DNA of 64,000 nucleotides. Origin: Phascolarctobacterium sp. ET69 (GTDB lineage: Bacteria; Bacillota; Negativicutes; Acidaminococcales; Acidaminococcaceae). Below, piece by piece: positions 20,960 to 27,120 of the stretch (positions are counted from its first letter, which is position 1; the number at the start of each line of letters is the position of its first letter). The position numbers and the translations under genes are program-made. Location of the stretch: positions 62,001-126,000 of the forward strand of contig NZ_JAMBLR010000003.1 in assembly GCF_023336935.1 (NCBI RefSeq), written 5' to 3'. Below the pieces are notes generated by a model, which saw only the letters and a program-made list of their open reading frames with translations, was not told where the DNA came from and did not search any database.

Positions 20960-21092
20960 TTGCCAAAAAATTTTTAATGTGCTATACTTACATCAATCTG
21001 TTTAACGCCGGTTAAGCAGGTGCCTTTATTTATGTATCGCAGGCCTTAGAAGATACATAAATAAGGGCATTTTTTGTTTTAACCGCATTTTT
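20960..21092 (+). repeat. left copy of a 133-bp direct repeat (orphan leader)
   Basis: Identical to 26988-27120 except A21055 for G27083. It carries a promoter (TTGCCA, 17 bp, TATACT at 20983-20988), a small hairpin CTGTTTAAC/GGTTAAGCAG, a long terminator stem GCCTTTATTTATGTATC/GATACATAAATAAGGGC with T6, and a GTTTTAACCGC tail. No gene follows it in its own direction: the next ORF is on the opposite strand. It marks the left end of the AT-rich island. Confidence 0.93.
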
Positions 21093-21214: not shown

Positions 21215-21883
21215 TTATATAAACAAATATGTTAATTTATCGCAATAAATTTTATATGATTCATCGAACGAAATTTTTATACAAGTTATTTTTCCACCTA
21301 AGCTTGTAACTTCAGCTAATAATTGACCTGCTTTTTTTGTTGTATCAAATATTATTTTCTCAATTTGAGGTGCGAACGCTACTATAAAATATTCGGCTTG
21401 ATATCCTTTGGACAATAATGAGCAAATGCTTTGTAACTGGTTGATTGCTCTTTGACTTTTCATATTTGGTATCAACAAAACTTTATCTTCTGTAATTATA
21501 CTTTTTACTTCAACTATTGTTTTAGATGTATTTGAATAAAAATCGCACTTGTAATTATCAATAACTTGCTCTGGATAAAATAAATCTTTATATTCAGCTA
21601 AGTGTGCTTTTACAATATGATTTGCAAATCCTGTATCAACAATAAAATAATCTTTGTTGTTTCGAACCGCAAATAAAGTATATTTTAATCGTTTAGCTGC
21701 TTTGGTTGACGCTCTTATCAAAATATCTTTGTTATTCAAAGATATTAATTTACTAAGTTTGCACGTAATCGGAACATAACACTCAAAAACATCATCGTTA
21801 TATGAAATATTGCAAATGAATCTGCTTTTTCCTTCTGATATAAATACGGCTTTATATAGTTTGAAATCTATAATATTAAGCAT
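21215..21883 (-). CDS. SfsA-like protein with PD-(D/E)XK-type motif
   Basis: About 222 residues, recognisably but distantly related to SfsA (sugar fermentation stimulation protein): the ECYVPITCKLSKLI, KLKYTLFAV, YFIVDTGFANHIV and KSQRAINQLQSICSLLSKGYQ segments follow the SfsA order. SfsA has a nuclease-like fold, and here Asp114 and Glu125-x-Lys127 (IVEVKS) fit a PD-(D/E)XK site. Inside an R-M island it may act as a nuclease or repair factor (inference). ATG 21883 with AGAGGT is preferred to the TTG at 21904. It is divergent from the XRE gene. Confidence 0.65.
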   Translation of the reverse strand: MLNIIDFKLYKAVFISEGKSRFICNISYNDDVFECYVPITCKLSKLISLNNKDILIRASTKAAKRLKYTLFAVRNNKDYFIVDTGFANHIVKAHLAEYKDLFYPEQVIDNYKCDFYSNTSKTIVEVKSIITEDKVLLIPNMKSQRAINQLQSICSLLSKGYQAEYFIVAFAPQIEKIIFDTTKKAGQLLAEVTSLGGKITCIKISFDESYKIYCDKLTYLFI

Positions 21884-21887
21884 ATAA

Positions 21888-22012
21888 TCTACCTCTTGAT
21901 TCAAATTGTATCATAAAAATATATAATAATCAATCTCGAGCAACCGATAGCATGGAATAATTTTCCCTTAAATCATAAAAATATTGCATACTATCGAATT
22001 TAATGGTATAAT
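21888..22012. promoter_or_regulatory. divergent promoters with XRE operator candidate
   Basis: Plus strand: TTGCAT (21984-21989), 17 bp, TATAAT (22007-22012) for the XRE gene. Minus strand: TTGATT and TACAAT with 17 bp for the SfsA-like gene. The inverted repeat CGATAGCATG (21945-21954) and CATACTATCG (21987-21996) has one mismatch in ten, and its right arm overlaps the plus-strand -35 region, as expected for a controller (C-protein-like) site. Confidence 0.6.
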
Positions 22013-22045: not shown

Positions 22046-22252
22046 ATGGCTGTTTCGTACAATAAACTATGGAAACTTCTTATTGATAAGAATATGAAAA
22101 AAATGGAATTGAAAAAAGCTGCAGGTATTGGTTCTACAACTTTGTCAAAACTAAGCAAAAATCAGCCTGTGTCAATGGAAGTCATGATTAAACTGTGTGG
22201 TGTCTTGGGGTGTAATATTGGAGACATTATGGATGTTATTGAAAATAACTAG
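22046..22252 (+). CDS. small XRE-family regulator (possible R-M controller)
   Basis: A 68-residue protein that is almost only a Cro/C1-type helix-turn-helix: YNKLWKLLIDKNMKKMELKKAAGIGSTTLSKLSKNQPVSMEVMIKLCGVLGCNIGDIMDV. Such small regulators often control R-M genes and act as timing devices. It lies 15 bp before the first methyltransferase gene and has a dyad in its own promoter. GCGAGGT precedes ATG 22046. Confidence 0.88.
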   Translation: MAVSYNKLWKLLIDKNMKKMELKKAAGIGSTTLSKLSKNQPVSMEVMIKLCGVLGCNIGDIMDVIENN

Positions 22253-22267: not shown

Positions 22268-23680
22268 ATGAGTCTTGCTCAAAACGCTTACATAGATGCT
22301 TCTAATGTATATGAAAACTCTCTTGAAAACAGTTATAAAAAAGTTAATGGAGTTTTTTATACAGACCTATCACTTGCCGAAAAAATGTTAACAGAACTGA
22401 AACTTCCAAAAGATACAATAATAATGGATCCTTGCTGTGGATCAGGAGTTTTTCTTTATGCCGCTAAAAAACATGGCTTTATCAATCTTTTTGGTGCAGA
22501 CAAAGATAAAAATGCTATCAAATTTTGCTTGAATAATATTAACAATGTTTCTTTTATCGTCTGCGATTCTATTGGCCAAACAGCTTCTACTCTGTTGAGT
22601 GAATTTGAAGAGATTAATCAACCTGATGTTGTTATAGGTAATCCACCTTATGTTCCTTTGTCTGGTGATATTGAATTAAACTGTGATTATCTTTTTAGAC
22701 GTAGAGTGTCTGATTTCGGTAACAATTTGTTTGTAGCAGCATTAGTACGAGCTTTTGAAATCGTAAAAACTAATGGTATTGTATCTTATATAATTCCAAA
22801 AAACTTTTTGCATGTTGCTGGATATAGCCTATTGCGGAGAACAATTCTTGAAGAAAAAACTATTGTTTCTATAATAGATATTGGAGCTTATTTCAAGAAT
22901 GTTCGAGGAGAGCAAATTATTCTTACAGTAAAAAATTGTGTAGCAGATAGAAAGCATAAAATCAAGTTGAAAAAGTTATCAAGTAATCGTTTTGTAACTA
23001 TGTGCAATATTCCTCAATCGTTTTACAAAGATGAAATACTAATTTTTAATTGTTCAGAAGATTATTCAACTTATAAAAAACTAATTTCCTCATATCAAAC
23101 ATTAGCCGATTTATGTAATGGTTATGTAGGTAGAGGAAAATCTGTTTCAACAGATGCGATAGCAGGGAAAGAAATACGTAAATTTGGATATAAAAATCAT
23201 ACTGTTCCCACAACTGGTAATAAGCTTTTCATCCAAAATATTTATAGTGCAGAAGCTGGTATAATAGCTGCTTTTGGCGGTAATATGGAAGCAACACAGA
23301 CGGTTACTGTATTCACAGATGGTGACGAGAAAATGTGTCGTTACATATTGGGCATACTTCATTCACGGTTGTGTAATTTTTTCTTGTACAAATACTGTTA
23401 TAATTACTCTAAACTTACAATGCATACAGATGCAAAATACTTAAAGAAAATACCACTTCCGTCAACTAATCAACAAGAAATATATTTTGATTCTATACTC
23501 AGCTTAGTTAGCAGATTAGAAAGCAATGATTATATGAGTCAAGAATGGTTCGACTGTTTAGAAGAATTAAATCAGATAGTATACAAAGCATACGGTATTA
23601 ATAAAAAAGAATCTGATTATATTGATTGTGAAGTAAAAAGAATTCAGTCTAAAAGGTGGATATCCGATGGTCAATTCTAA
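22268..23680 (+). CDS. N6-adenine DNA methyltransferase (TaqI/Eco57I-like)
   Basis: A 470-residue DNA methyltransferase. The AdoMet-binding motif I is DPCCGSGVFLYAA (from residue 54) and the catalytic motif IV is NPPY (125-128), in the order of gamma-class adenine methyltransferases. The C-terminal half (about 250-470) would be the target-recognition domain. AGAAAGGAG precedes ATG 22268. Its last 14 bases overlap the next methyltransferase gene, so both are coexpressed. Target sequence unknown. Confidence 0.9.
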   Translation: MSLAQNAYIDASNVYENSLENSYKKVNGVFYTDLSLAEKMLTELKLPKDTIIMDPCCGSGVFLYAAKKHGFINLFGADKDKNAIKFCLNNINNVSFIVCDSIGQTASTLLSEFEEINQPDVVIGNPPYVPLSGDIELNCDYLFRRRVSDFGNNLFVAALVRAFEIVKTNGIVSYIIPKNFLHVAGYSLLRRTILEEKTIVSIIDIGAYFKNVRGEQIILTVKNCVADRKHKIKLKKLSSNRFVTMCNIPQSFYKDEILIFNCSEDYSTYKKLISSYQTLADLCNGYVGRGKSVSTDAIAGKEIRKFGYKNHTVPTTGNKLFIQNIYSAEAGIIAAFGGNMEATQTVTVFTDGDEKMCRYILGILHSRLCNFFLYKYCYNYSKLTMHTDAKYLKKIPLPSTNQQEIYFDSILSLVSRLESNDYMSQEWFDCLEELNQIVYKAYGINKKESDYIDCEVKRIQSKRWISDGQF

Positions 23681-24440
23681 AAAATGCAATGATCTTACTG
23701 GAAAAGAGTGGCTTCAAAATTCTTTTAGCATTTGGCGAGATTTATCCAAAACAAAAGAAGAAAAAGATTTTAAGCATCCAGCATCTTATCCGGTTTCGTT
23801 ATGCGAAAAACTAATACGTACTTTTTCAAAAGCAAATTCGTGTGTATTAGATCCTTTTAATGGTATTGGCTCTACAACTGTAGCTGCACAAAAGCTTGGA
23901 TGTGAGGCTGTAGGGATTGATTTATCTGATGCTTTTTGTAATATAGCAAAACAACGTGTGGGAAAAGATGATAAAATTCAGATAATTAATGGTGATAGTT
24001 TTGAAGTGTTAAAAATGCTTCCTGCAAATCACTTTGATATTTGTGTCACATCTCCACCATATTGGGATATTCTCAATATGAAACGCAGCGCTGACCAAAA
24101 AGAGGCTATAAATTACTCTGATAAGACTAATGATATTGGAAATATTGCAAATTATAATGAATTTGTAAATACGTTATCAAACCTTTTTGTTTCAGTTAAT
24201 AGAGTTTTGAAAAAAGGTGGTTATTGTATTGTAAATGTAATGGATATTCGCAAAAAAAGCAATTTTTATCCTTTGCATAGTGATTTAGCTACAGCATTAC
24301 AAAAGGTCGGATTTATTTACGATGATCTAATTATTTGGGATAGACAAGCAGATTACAATAATATGCGTCCGCTAGGATATCCATACAAATTTCGTATCAA
24401 CAAGGTTCACGAATACCTTTTGATATTTATCAAGGAGTAG
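23667..24440 (+). CDS. second DNA methyltransferase (TSPPY type)
   Basis: A 257-residue methyltransferase with motif I LDPFNGIGSTTVAAQKLGCEAVGID (from residue 61) followed by TSPPYWDIL (128-136). SPPY is usual for N4-cytosine and some N6-adenine enzymes. Motif I preceding motif IV is the permuted order relative to beta-class enzymes. The N-terminal WLQNSFSIWRDL and KHPASYPVSLCEKLI segments are typical of R-M-linked members. A pair of methyltransferases suggests an asymmetric target modified strand by strand. Confidence 0.88.
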   Translation: MVNSKKCNDLTGKEWLQNSFSIWRDLSKTKEEKDFKHPASYPVSLCEKLIRTFSKANSCVLDPFNGIGSTTVAAQKLGCEAVGIDLSDAFCNIAKQRVGKDDKIQIINGDSFEVLKMLPANHFDICVTSPPYWDILNMKRSADQKEAINYSDKTNDIGNIANYNEFVNTLSNLFVSVNRVLKKGGYCIVNVMDIRKKSNFYPLHSDLATALQKVGFIYDDLIIWDRQADYNNMRPLGYPYKFRINKVHEYLLIFIKE

Positions 24441-24445
24441 ATGTT

Positions 24446-24901
24446 ATGACGTTGTTAAGTTCAAGGGCTTCAGATATTAATGTATCAATAGCCGAACTTT
24501 GCTTGATACTTGGATATATGAGCACTCCTGGAAGGGTAGGTTTGATTGAGGCGCAAATTCCAGAAGAGAAAGCATTTATGTTTGAACGAGAATTTCCAGG
24601 GGAGCCTTATTATCCAATAACTCAAGGTGAAACTACCGGTGGCAATATAATGAAACAAGGTTGTCAACTACGTATATATTTTTTAAACACAAGGAATTGT
24701 CCGATAATTCTATTACCACATCTTAAGGCTGGAGTTGGTAATTATGTAAATAGAATTAATCGAGGAAAATTTATTGAACGAATAGTTAAAAATTATGGTT
24801 TTTGTTTTGGTGAACATCAAAATGCTGCAACAATACGTGCCATTGTAGCACGTTTGCACCCTACAAACGTTGTAGATTTCGATCGTGGTTATAATTTGTA
24901 A
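24446..24901 (+). CDS. unknown protein of the R-M island (151 aa)
   Basis: I do not recognise this protein. It follows the second methyltransferase after five bases, with AAGGAG upstream of ATG 24446, so it is translated with it. No signal peptide or membrane segment is seen. Notable are the segments LCLILGYMSTPGRVGLIEAQIPEE, PYYPITQGETTGGN and GFCFGEHQNAATIRAIVARLHP; several charged residues could form a catalytic site, but no classical nuclease motif is evident. By position it is a candidate restriction subunit or accessory factor. Confidence 0.7.
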   Translation: MTLLSSRASDINVSIAELCLILGYMSTPGRVGLIEAQIPEEKAFMFEREFPGEPYYPITQGETTGGNIMKQGCQLRIYFLNTRNCPIILLPHLKAGVGNYVNRINRGKFIERIVKNYGFCFGEHQNAATIRAIVARLHPTNVVDFDRGYNL

Positions 24902-25233
24902 TTGATTAATTTACAATAGAAAGAATTTGAATTTTCTATATCATATTAAGCACAAAGGTGGATAATTCTTTGTAGAATCAAGGCGAGAAACAATAATCAT
25001 ATTTATTAATGACATGTGCCGCTATTACAATTGAGTTTGCTGGAATAATTGTATTGCAAAAAATGCTAATTTAAATTATATTTTGGAGTTCCTTCTTTTC
25101 AGTCTTCTAACATAGCTCAATTGTCCGAAAGAAGTAAAGTATAAAAGACCGATTGTTTGTGTTTTCTAAATAATAAATAATAATGTTTATTTTATTGGTA
25201 AAAAATAAGAATAAAATAAAAGGTTGTGATTGT
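24902..25233. other. AT-rich gap inside the island
   Basis: No supportable gene. Short open stretches are interrupted by stops in all frames. The segment before 25233 contains AT-rich promoter-like sequence and the AAGGTTGTG ribosome binding site of the next gene. The gap separates the methyltransferase unit from the nuclease unit, so the latter may have its own promoter. Confidence 0.5.
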
Positions 25234-26121
25234 ATGAATCGAGAAATGTCTTATCTTTTAGGTATGATTTGTGGCAATGGAGAAGTAAGACGTGGTGTAT
25301 CAGAAACCACCATATCTATTGAAATTCCACACAAAAAACTGGCAACAGAAAATAATAACGATGTTAGAATATATGTACGTGCAAGTATAACCGATATTCG
25401 CACAGTATTAGAACCATTAATTGGTACAGGATTAAACTTTACTCAGCAGGATAATTATTCTATTATTTCTTTTACTAAAAAAAATGATGAATATATGATG
25501 AGAGAGATTTTACGTTATATTGACAATGCTGTATCTCATGAAAATATAAGAATTGATGAAGAAGTGTTTTCTTTTACTCGTGATGAAAAAATTTCTTTTT
25601 TACAAGGCTTTGCTGATGTTACAGGTTATATTCGTAGAAGCAACTATTTCTTTAAAACCTATATGCATCGAGTTTACTTAGAGGTACCACATAATTGGTA
25701 CTTGGTAAGTGATATTTGTCGTTTACTTAAAGATGTCAATATTCCTGTACAAGCAATAGATTGGGCTCATCCTAATATGCGTGACGGAAATCTTGTTAAA
25801 TACGAAGAAGGAAAATCTGACTTTTGGAAAAAGGAACATCAAATTAAAATATGGGCAAATGAATTTTTGCCCATAGGATTTGCTGTTTTACACAAAAGAG
25901 AAGCTCTTGCTCAGTTTGCAACAGAATTAGTTGATGGTATTCAATCAGAGGGTAAAATCCCCAAAGAAGTAACTCACAAATTCTATTGGGATGGTCGAGA
26001 AAGAATTAGAATCAAACCACATCATCCATGTGAAAATGATGAATTTATTCCATTAGAAATTAGGGGAAAACACTATGATTCGTGGAAGCAGATAGCTAAA
26101 GATTTAGGATACGGAGAATAA
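25234..26121 (+). CDS. LAGLIDADG-like DNA-binding protein, catalytic acids substituted
   Basis: A 295-residue protein with two segments matching LAGLIDADG helices: YLLGMICGNGE (7-17) and FLQGFADVTGYI (122-133), about 115 residues apart as in a single-chain double-motif homing endonuclease. Aligned to LAGLIDADG, the catalytic eighth-position Asp is Asn in the first and Thr in the second, so canonical cleavage looks lost. DNA recognition by the fold may remain. It is translated four bases ahead of a PD-(D/E)XK nuclease gene. ATG 25234 is chosen over an upstream start by its ribosome binding site. Confidence 0.65.
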   Translation: MNREMSYLLGMICGNGEVRRGVSETTISIEIPHKKLATENNNDVRIYVRASITDIRTVLEPLIGTGLNFTQQDNYSIISFTKKNDEYMMREILRYIDNAVSHENIRIDEEVFSFTRDEKISFLQGFADVTGYIRRSNYFFKTYMHRVYLEVPHNWYLVSDICRLLKDVNIPVQAIDWAHPNMRDGNLVKYEEGKSDFWKKEHQIKIWANEFLPIGFAVLHKREALAQFATELVDGIQSEGKIPKEVTHKFYWDGRERIRIKPHHPCENDEFIPLEIRGKHYDSWKQIAKDLGYGE

Positions 26122-26125
26122 TGTT

Positions 26126-26605
26126 ATGAGGGAATTTGACTTATATCCACCAATGCAATTATGGCTTAAAACATATCTGAAGAATAAATACAAATCTGCT
26201 GATGAAATAATTGTCGTGGACGCACATAGTGAACGGTTGGACAGAGTTCTTAGAAAGTATAATATAATTCAAGAGGAAGCTATCGGTGTAGATATTCAAA
26301 TTGATGTTCTCGGCATTGTAAAGAACGCAGATAAGTTCAAACTATTTTTTATTGAAGCAAAAAAGACAAGTTTAACTTTACGTGATTTAGGCCAACTGTG
26401 GGCGTATTGCAAACTGATTGATCCGGAAGAAGCATTTTTAATGACTTCTGCGAACTTGGGATCATTAAATAAACTTTTCAATGTTTACAAAAGGGATGAT
26501 TTACTTGATTTTGGTGATGGTAAACGTATTAAAAAGATGAAAATAGCTATTTGGAATATGCAAACCAATGCACCGGATTTTGCAAGTATGATTCCCAAAA
26601 TTTAA
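26126..26605 (+). CDS. PD-(D/E)XK nuclease-fold protein
   Basis: A 159-residue protein whose core reads VDIQIDVLGIV then KLFFIEAKKTSLTLRDLGQLWAYC. Asp60 and Glu77-Ala-Lys79 form a PD-(D/E)XK site, and the following Gln/Trp helix is usual in restriction-type nucleases of this fold. It follows the LAGLIDADG-like gene after four bases. I infer that it is the cutting subunit of a two-gene restriction enzyme, with the partner providing DNA recognition. Confidence 0.72.
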   Translation: MREFDLYPPMQLWLKTYLKNKYKSADEIIVVDAHSERLDRVLRKYNIIQEEAIGVDIQIDVLGIVKNADKFKLFFIEAKKTSLTLRDLGQLWAYCKLIDPEEAFLMTSANLGSLNKLFNVYKRDDLLDFGDGKRIKKMKIAIWNMQTNAPDFASMIPKI

Positions 26606-26987: not shown

Positions 26988-27120
26988 TTGCCAAAAAATT
27001 TTTAATGTGCTATACTTACATCAATCTGTTTAACGCCGGTTAAGCAGGTGCCTTTATTTATGTATCGCAGGCCTTAGAAGATGCATAAATAAGGGCATTT
27101 TTTGTTTTAACCGCATTTTT
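26988..27120 (+). repeat. right copy of the 133-bp direct repeat: attenuator leader of the SMR gene
   Basis: Promoter TTGCCA (26988-26993), 17 bp, TATACT (27011-27016), then a structured leader: hairpin CTGTTTAAC/GGTTAAGCAG, terminator GCCTTTATTTATGTATC/GATGCATAAATAAGGGC (27050-27096) with T6 (27098-27103), and a tail whose TTAACCG (27107-27113) can pair with CGGTTAA (27037-27043). AAGGAGG of the SMR gene begins one base after the repeat. This is a transcription attenuator and a candidate riboswitch; because the gene encodes a guanidinium-type exporter, guanidine is the natural ligand to test. I could not match it to guanidine-I, -II or -III consensus. Confidence 0.75.

Follow-up and report, generated by a model that had tools for sequence, protein, structure and literature searches.

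A predicted Type II restriction-modification system with a catalytically dead LAGLIDADG-fold subunit and a separately encoded PD-(D/E)XK nuclease

We analyzed a 64,000-nucleotide stretch of the genome of Phascolarctobacterium sp. ET69 (contig NZ_JAMBLR010000003.1, positions 62,001 to 126,000 of the forward strand; hereafter, the window), in which two neighboring genes code for proteins of 295 and 159 amino acids (aa). These genes quite probably belong to a Type II restriction-modification system whose restriction enzyme is split: a catalytically dead LAGLIDADG protein would serve as the recognition subunit, and a separate nuclease would do the cutting. An initial annotation of the window, made from the letters alone, had offered this interpretation, and our follow-up supports and largely upholds it. 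The gene pair and its key residues, in window coordinates, are as follows.

25234..26121, + strand: LAGLIDADG-fold protein, 295 aa, predicted catalytically dead DNA-recognition subunit (AlphaFold2, Foldseek, 87 homologues)
25255..25281, + strand: first LAGLIDADG motif, LLGMICGNG, with Asn15 (25276-25278) in place of the catalytic acid (N15 in 87/87)
25600..25626, + strand: second LAGLIDADG motif, LQGFADVTG, with Thr130 (25621-25623) in place of the catalytic acid (T130 in 87/87)
26023..26073, + strand: C-terminal signature HPxENDxxxPxxIRGxH, outside the LAGLIDADG repeats (alignment with the distant-branch locus L101, described below)
26126..26605, + strand: PD-(D/E)XK nuclease subunit, 159 aa (AlphaFold2, Foldseek, residues kept in both branches of the family)
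Nuclease residue codons, + strand: D60 26303-26305, E77 26354-26356, K79 26360-26362, Q90 26393-26395, Y94 26405-26407

The two open reading frames, the 4-base gap between them (26122-26125), the Asn and Thr at the acid positions, and the Asp60 and Glu77-x-Lys79 of the nuclease had all been reported in the initial annotation, and each was confirmed here. A 312-aa form of the LAGLIDADG protein, present in the list of open reading frames, was rejected because homologues start at the methionine of the 295-aa form with the same MN-x-EM, which makes 25234 the correct start.

The predicted structure of the 295-aa protein places it among LAGLIDADG proteins, as had been claimed. An AlphaFold2 model built from an 84-sequence alignment (mean predicted local distance difference test score, pLDDT, 91.2; predicted template modeling score 0.91) displayed an alpha-beta-beta-alpha-beta-beta-alpha arrangement in a single chain, with the two LAGLIDADG motifs carried by helices H3-15 and H116-130 of the two repeats. 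When this model was compared to the PDB using Foldseek, 52 matches with E ≤ 0.001 were obtained, and among the matches listed all were LAGLIDADG endonucleases (I-DmoI, I-AniI, PI-SceI, and I-OnuI variants), the bI3 maturase, inteins, or WhiA, each with a probability of 1.00; query-normalized TM-scores of the PDB matches were just 0.33-0.46. Matches of the protein in a viral library, where named, were mostly intein-carrying kinds of protein and homing endonucleases. The profile search proposed in the initial annotation did return LAGLIDADG families, and the matches were weak: the window protein matched Hom_end with E 0.15, and among 84 homologues, 6 matched Hom_end, with a best value of 0.004, and one matched LAGLIDADG_2 (0.014). 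Thus the sequence-profile evidence for LAGLIDADG membership is weak and that from the predicted fold is strong. Searches of PDB sequences with single proteins and with profiles found nothing, and neither the 295-aa nor the 159-aa protein was above the cut-off in Pfam, NCBIfam, PADLOC, or PHROGs. A match to the HEPN family pEK499_p136 (16.9 bits; cut-off 26.6) was taken as chance since the predicted fold is LAGLIDADG.

For comparison we selected 87 loci via the LAGLIDADG gene alone (80 from a genome collection, three viral, one plasmid type, two phages, and the window). A profile search also revealed a distant branch, represented by loci L101 (E 1.9e-18; 25% identity of the LAGLIDADG-like protein) and L102. 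Both loci (L101:6060-9300 and L102:2639-5881) encode a C5-cytosine (C5) methyltransferase, a LAGLIDADG-like protein, and a PD-(D/E)XK nuclease; the LAGLIDADG-like protein is 463 aa long, with motifs GGG and DTIG, and the nuclease 206 aa. The LAGLIDADG gene of L102 is broken by a frame disruption. A scan of viral contigs with distant-branch queries found nothing. Common to the main and distant branches is the HPxENDxxxPxxIRGxH segment, which lies beyond the LAGLIDADG repeats in a C-terminus that the model shows mainly as coil with short helices; used as a DNA pattern, it matched this family alone (4 contigs) among 2.9 million viral contigs. We regard this segment as a candidate contact with the nuclease. 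On balance we think it likely that the family is an undescribed superfamily of restriction enzymes comprising two or more branches, whose domesticated LAGLIDADG fold purely reads DNA and whose independently encoded PD-(D/E)XK nuclease cuts it.

The eighth position of a LAGLIDADG motif is the acid that binds the catalytic metal. That acid is absent from both motifs of the window protein, where LLGMICGN15G has Asn and LQGFADVT130G has Thr, and both replacements were present in 87/87 homologues down to a pairwise identity of 43%, indicating that they are not there by chance. One of our two search patterns, GNGE, contains Asn15, and the other, FWKKEH, does not depend on it; since the homologues carrying FWKKEH also had Asn (66/66), the invariance of N15 is not merely an artifact of the GNGE pattern. 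The distant branch has Gly and Ile at the two positions, so the two branches lack the acids in different ways, which is what one would expect of a protein whose catalysis is no longer needed. The loss of the catalytic acid from both motifs, which the initial annotation had inferred from one sequence, therefore extends to both branches.

The earlier reading of the second protein as a PD-(D/E)XK nuclease was supported. Its AlphaFold2 model (pLDDT 96.3) has the canonical PD-(D/E)XK core, and the best folds were those of BamHI, EcoT38I, and MspJI (Foldseek; probability 0.72-0.93 and E 0.02-0.04 for the leading matches). Residues D60, E77, and K79 were conserved in 87/87 loci and Q90 and Y94 (Q90xxxY94) in 98%, and all five were retained in the distant-branch nuclease at 21% identity. 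A Q-xxx-Y motif is typical of the RecB/Cas4/HsdR kind of PD-(D/E)XK nucleases, near which we therefore place the 159-aa protein; weak Cas4 matches were also seen. Judged from the model, the protein is little more than a catalytic core, with a predicted intact active site. In one Bacteroidales locus, an intact LAGLIDADG gene is accompanied by a nuclease frame of just 93 aa (L077:7863-8144), which is probably decayed.

The nuclease gene directly follows the LAGLIDADG gene in all 87 loci, at a distance of -31 to +29 bases, most commonly with an 11- or 4-base overlap. Most pairs overlap by 4-17 bases, an arrangement suggestive of translational coupling. In a reverse search of 295 genomes of one order, the nuclease profile found four genomes, all of which also had the LAGLIDADG gene, and the LAGLIDADG profile found those four as well as the two distant-branch genomes. 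The pairwise distances among LAGLIDADG proteins correlate with those among their partner nucleases (r = 0.73). The initial annotation had named homologues that never co-occur, or a fold unlike LAGLIDADG, as observations that would speak against its proposal, and we saw neither. The pair always lies inside a methyltransferase-nuclease gene block, rather than as a free-standing, intron, or intein homing gene, and no intron or intein context was seen around the LAGLIDADG genes among the loci compared. Because a test for the catalytic acids showed them to be absent, we file the system under Type II restriction-modification and not under homing endonucleases.

Upstream of the pair, the window encodes two methyltransferases:

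22268..23680, + strand: adenine (NPPY) DNA methyltransferase, Eco57I/TaqI-like, 470 aa (Pfam Eco57I 2e-15, TaqI_C 1e-4; motif)
23667..24440, + strand: N6_N4_Mtase-family methyltransferase, SPPY, predicted to act on N4 of cytosine, 257 aa (Pfam N6_N4_Mtase 5e-34)

The two neighboring methyltransferases noted at the outset, and the gene order whose conservation was to be checked, proved to be a constant part of the locus. Complete upstream DNA was available for 83 loci (the remaining four are cut by contig ends), and every one of them pairs a single adenine-type methyltransferase (NPPY/F) with a single cytosine-type enzyme (SPPY or C5). The combinations are Eco57I-like NPPY with SPPY N4-methylcytosine (m4C) enzymes in 43 loci, including the window; EcoRI-type NPPF with C5 in 36, 16 of which have the two as one fused chain; and C5 with Eco57I-like in 4. 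Lactiplantibacillus plantarum P9 and [Ruminococcus] torques ATCC 27756 are examples of strains with the EcoRI-type and C5 combination. All 44 members of the N6_N4_Mtase type carry SPPY. On the tree, no more than 4 changes of methyltransferase combination are required, and the C5 with Eco57I-like type appears in two places within a C5 clade. Since the families have been swapped and the A and C bases stayed constant, the simplest reading is that of an asymmetric site with a modifiable A on one strand and a modifiable C on the other, which would be methylated separately. Two methyltransferases, one per strand and sometimes fused, usually accompany the Type IIT enzymes, whose sites are asymmetric (PMC4081073). 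The presence of cognate methyltransferase genes beside the nuclease gene, two in 83/83 complete loci and one in the distant branch, is what is expected of a Type II system. We do not interpret the nuclease as a Vsr-like repair enzyme associated with C5 methylation, because it is just as constant beside m4C systems that lack any C5 enzyme. MhoVII, which has fused methyltransferases, is a different system, its two enzymes being of the YhdJ and D12 types (PMC12898733).

We propose that the LAGLIDADG protein, through its two pseudo-symmetric halves, would bind an asymmetric DNA sequence, to which a single-chain pseudo-dimer is suited, and that it would recruit or position the 159-aa nuclease in a physical complex. 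The nuclease could then cleave the two DNA strands as a dimer or by two successive nicks, and the adenine and cytosine methyltransferases would protect the host by modifying the two strands of the same site, so that phage or plasmid DNA may be restricted. Reading is assigned to one protein and cutting to the other since the LAGLIDADG acids are absent and the nuclease active site is intact.

Several points weigh against this proposal. The Foldseek E-values of the nuclease are modest (0.02), and the distant branch has a single methyltransferase, a C5 enzyme with an N-terminal helix-turn-helix (HTH), so that the rule of two methyltransferases is not universal. In principle, a 159-aa PD-(D/E)XK protein could be a complete restriction enzyme by itself; small enzymes of this kind exist, and PvuII is similar in size. 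Moreover, the degenerate LAGLIDADG domain of WhiA no longer reads DNA by itself (PMC3781837), and a LAGLIDADG fold is thus no proof of DNA reading. One alternative is that restriction is carried out by the nuclease alone, and that the LAGLIDADG protein plays an accessory role in DNA binding or regulation similar to that of WhiA, a degenerate LAGLIDADG regulator which sets a precedent (PMC3781837) and was also among the Foldseek matches. We consider this unlikely: all 87 loci keep the pair, usually with overlapping genes, whereas a candidate HTH regulator is found in only 17, and no C-terminal HTH of the WhiA type was detected in the LAGLIDADG protein by Pfam.

It is also conceivable that the LAGLIDADG protein cuts or nicks one strand using non-canonical residues and that the nuclease cuts the other, following the division between large and small subunits in BsrDI and BtsI (PMC4081073). 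Apart from N15 and T130, K205 is strictly conserved among the 87 homologues and K82 and E17 nearly so, and some of these residues adjoin the former active site. The metal-binding acids, however, are Asn and Thr in one branch and Gly and Ile in the other, and E17 is replaced by Val in the distant branch, so that no shared alternative acid is evident and the idea is highly doubtful. That the LAGLIDADG protein acts as a specificity subunit shared by methylation and cleavage, like the S subunit of Type I/IIB systems, would agree with its presence beside every methyltransferase combination but is most improbable, because the methyltransferase families involved (EcoRI-type, C5, and Eco57I/TaqI-like) have their own target recognition and were swapped while the LAGLIDADG protein stayed.

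The methyltransferases and the gene pair of the window lie in a cassette bounded by direct repeats, together with accessory genes:

20960..21092, + strand: left of the two 133-bp direct repeats that bound the cassette (132/133 positions shared with the right copy)
21215..21904, - strand: divergent SfsA-like protein within the cassette (Pfam SfsA 6e-11; NCBIfam 45.7 bits, cut-off 126)
22046..22252, + strand: small Cro/C1-type HTH protein, candidate controller (Pfam HTH_26 9e-18; NCBIfam VanU-like)
24446..24901, + strand: accessory protein p151, 151 aa (homologues in 29/87 loci, some fused to a NOV_C (DUF3883-like) domain)
24902..25233, + strand: remains of a second small accessory gene, p115 (~115 aa; comparison with L006, L007, L009-L012, and L016)
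26988..27120, + strand: right 133-bp direct repeat flanking the cassette (comparison with the left copy and the empty site)

Guanine-cytosine content is 28-32% in the cassette vs. 45-50% in its surroundings. A sister species (G002), whose flanks are 98% identical, has an empty site with a single copy of the 133-bp sequence, and three further congeners also lack the cassette at this place. The cassette, judged from these alignments, was inserted with a long (133-bp) target duplication; such insertion has been reported for mobile restriction-modification genes (PMC3031569). Among 300 genomes of the host's class, no further one carries the LAGLIDADG gene, and its nearest relative, 93% identical, is in a metagenome-assembled genome (MAG) of Clostridia. 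According to record titles, many of which are those of MAGs, members of the family are spread over about ten phyla (Bacillota, Bacteroidota, Spirochaetota, Elusimicrobiota, Pseudomonadota, Thermodesulfobacteriota, Chloroflexota, Synergistota, Fibrobacterota, Mycoplasmatota, and Melainabacteria), and are also present in phages and on two plasmids of Lactiplantibacillus. The set thus appears to move among gut bacteria, plasmids, and phages.

Among the accessory genes, p115 is decayed in the window genome and intact in close relatives. Proteins p151 and/or p115, which look related to each other, are encoded in 44/87 loci, and several Lachnospiraceae loci have a p151-NOV_C (DUF3883-like) fusion (for example, L032:4220-5308). 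A Cro/C1-type HTH gene similar to that of the window accounts for the 17 loci mentioned above. The SfsA-like gene is present in 9/87 loci (copies include L011:5045-5725, L050:8378-9067, and L057:5584-6240); in three of the nine it lies directly downstream of the nuclease gene. In a viral contig (L105:3369-4988), the restriction genes are followed by a gene for a protein that resembles, by eye, an OLD-family AAA/TOPRIM nuclease.

If a LAGLIDADG protein indeed reads the site that a separate nuclease cuts, a new fold would be added to restriction enzymes, and LAGLIDADG domestication would have another case besides WhiA. The system would provide small two-part enzymes whose reader belongs to an already widely re-engineered class, a natural counterpart of the engineered fusions that aim a separate nuclease by a DNA-binding module, and a likely function for plasmid and phage genes annotated only as hypothetical proteins. 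Type II enzymes are mostly grouped as PD-(D/E)XK, HNH, and GIY-YIG plus rare other folds, and LAGLIDADG is unmentioned in the standard review (PMC4081073); no LAGLIDADG restriction enzyme was found in the literature searched (REBASE and subscription papers lay outside its scope).

Compared with known systems, the 159-aa nuclease shares the conserved D, ExK, and QxxxY of RecB/Cas4/HsdR-type nucleases but belongs above cut-off to none of the families in the four collections searched. WhiA/DUF199 is likewise a domesticated LAGLIDADG fold whose catalytic residues are lost; WhiA, however, reads DNA by an added HTH and regulates transcription (PMC3781837), whereas the protein described here has no detected HTH and sits in a restriction-modification cassette. 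The LAGLIDADG homing endonucleases I-DmoI, I-AniI, and PI-SceI resemble it in predicted fold, in the two LAGLIDADG helices, and in being single chains, but here both acids are lost, an extra C-terminal HPxEND...IRG segment is present, and a nuclease and methyltransferases stand alongside. The Type IIS enzyme FokI, like the proposed system, has separate modules for reading DNA and for PD-(D/E)XK cutting, with one catalytic site; FokI, however, combines them in a single chain and uses another DNA-reading domain, whereas in our system two separate genes are found in 87/87 loci and the fold of the predicted reader is that of a homing endonuclease. Finally, the Type IIT enzymes (BsrDI, BtsI, and BspD6I/BstNBI) come closest in organization, resembling the proposed system in having two chains, a small cutting subunit without specificity, an asymmetric site, and usually two methyltransferases, but their large subunit reads the site and also cuts one strand (PMC4081073), both subunits being catalytic, whereas here, judging by sequence, the predicted reader is a LAGLIDADG protein without the acids and only one catalytic subunit is evident.
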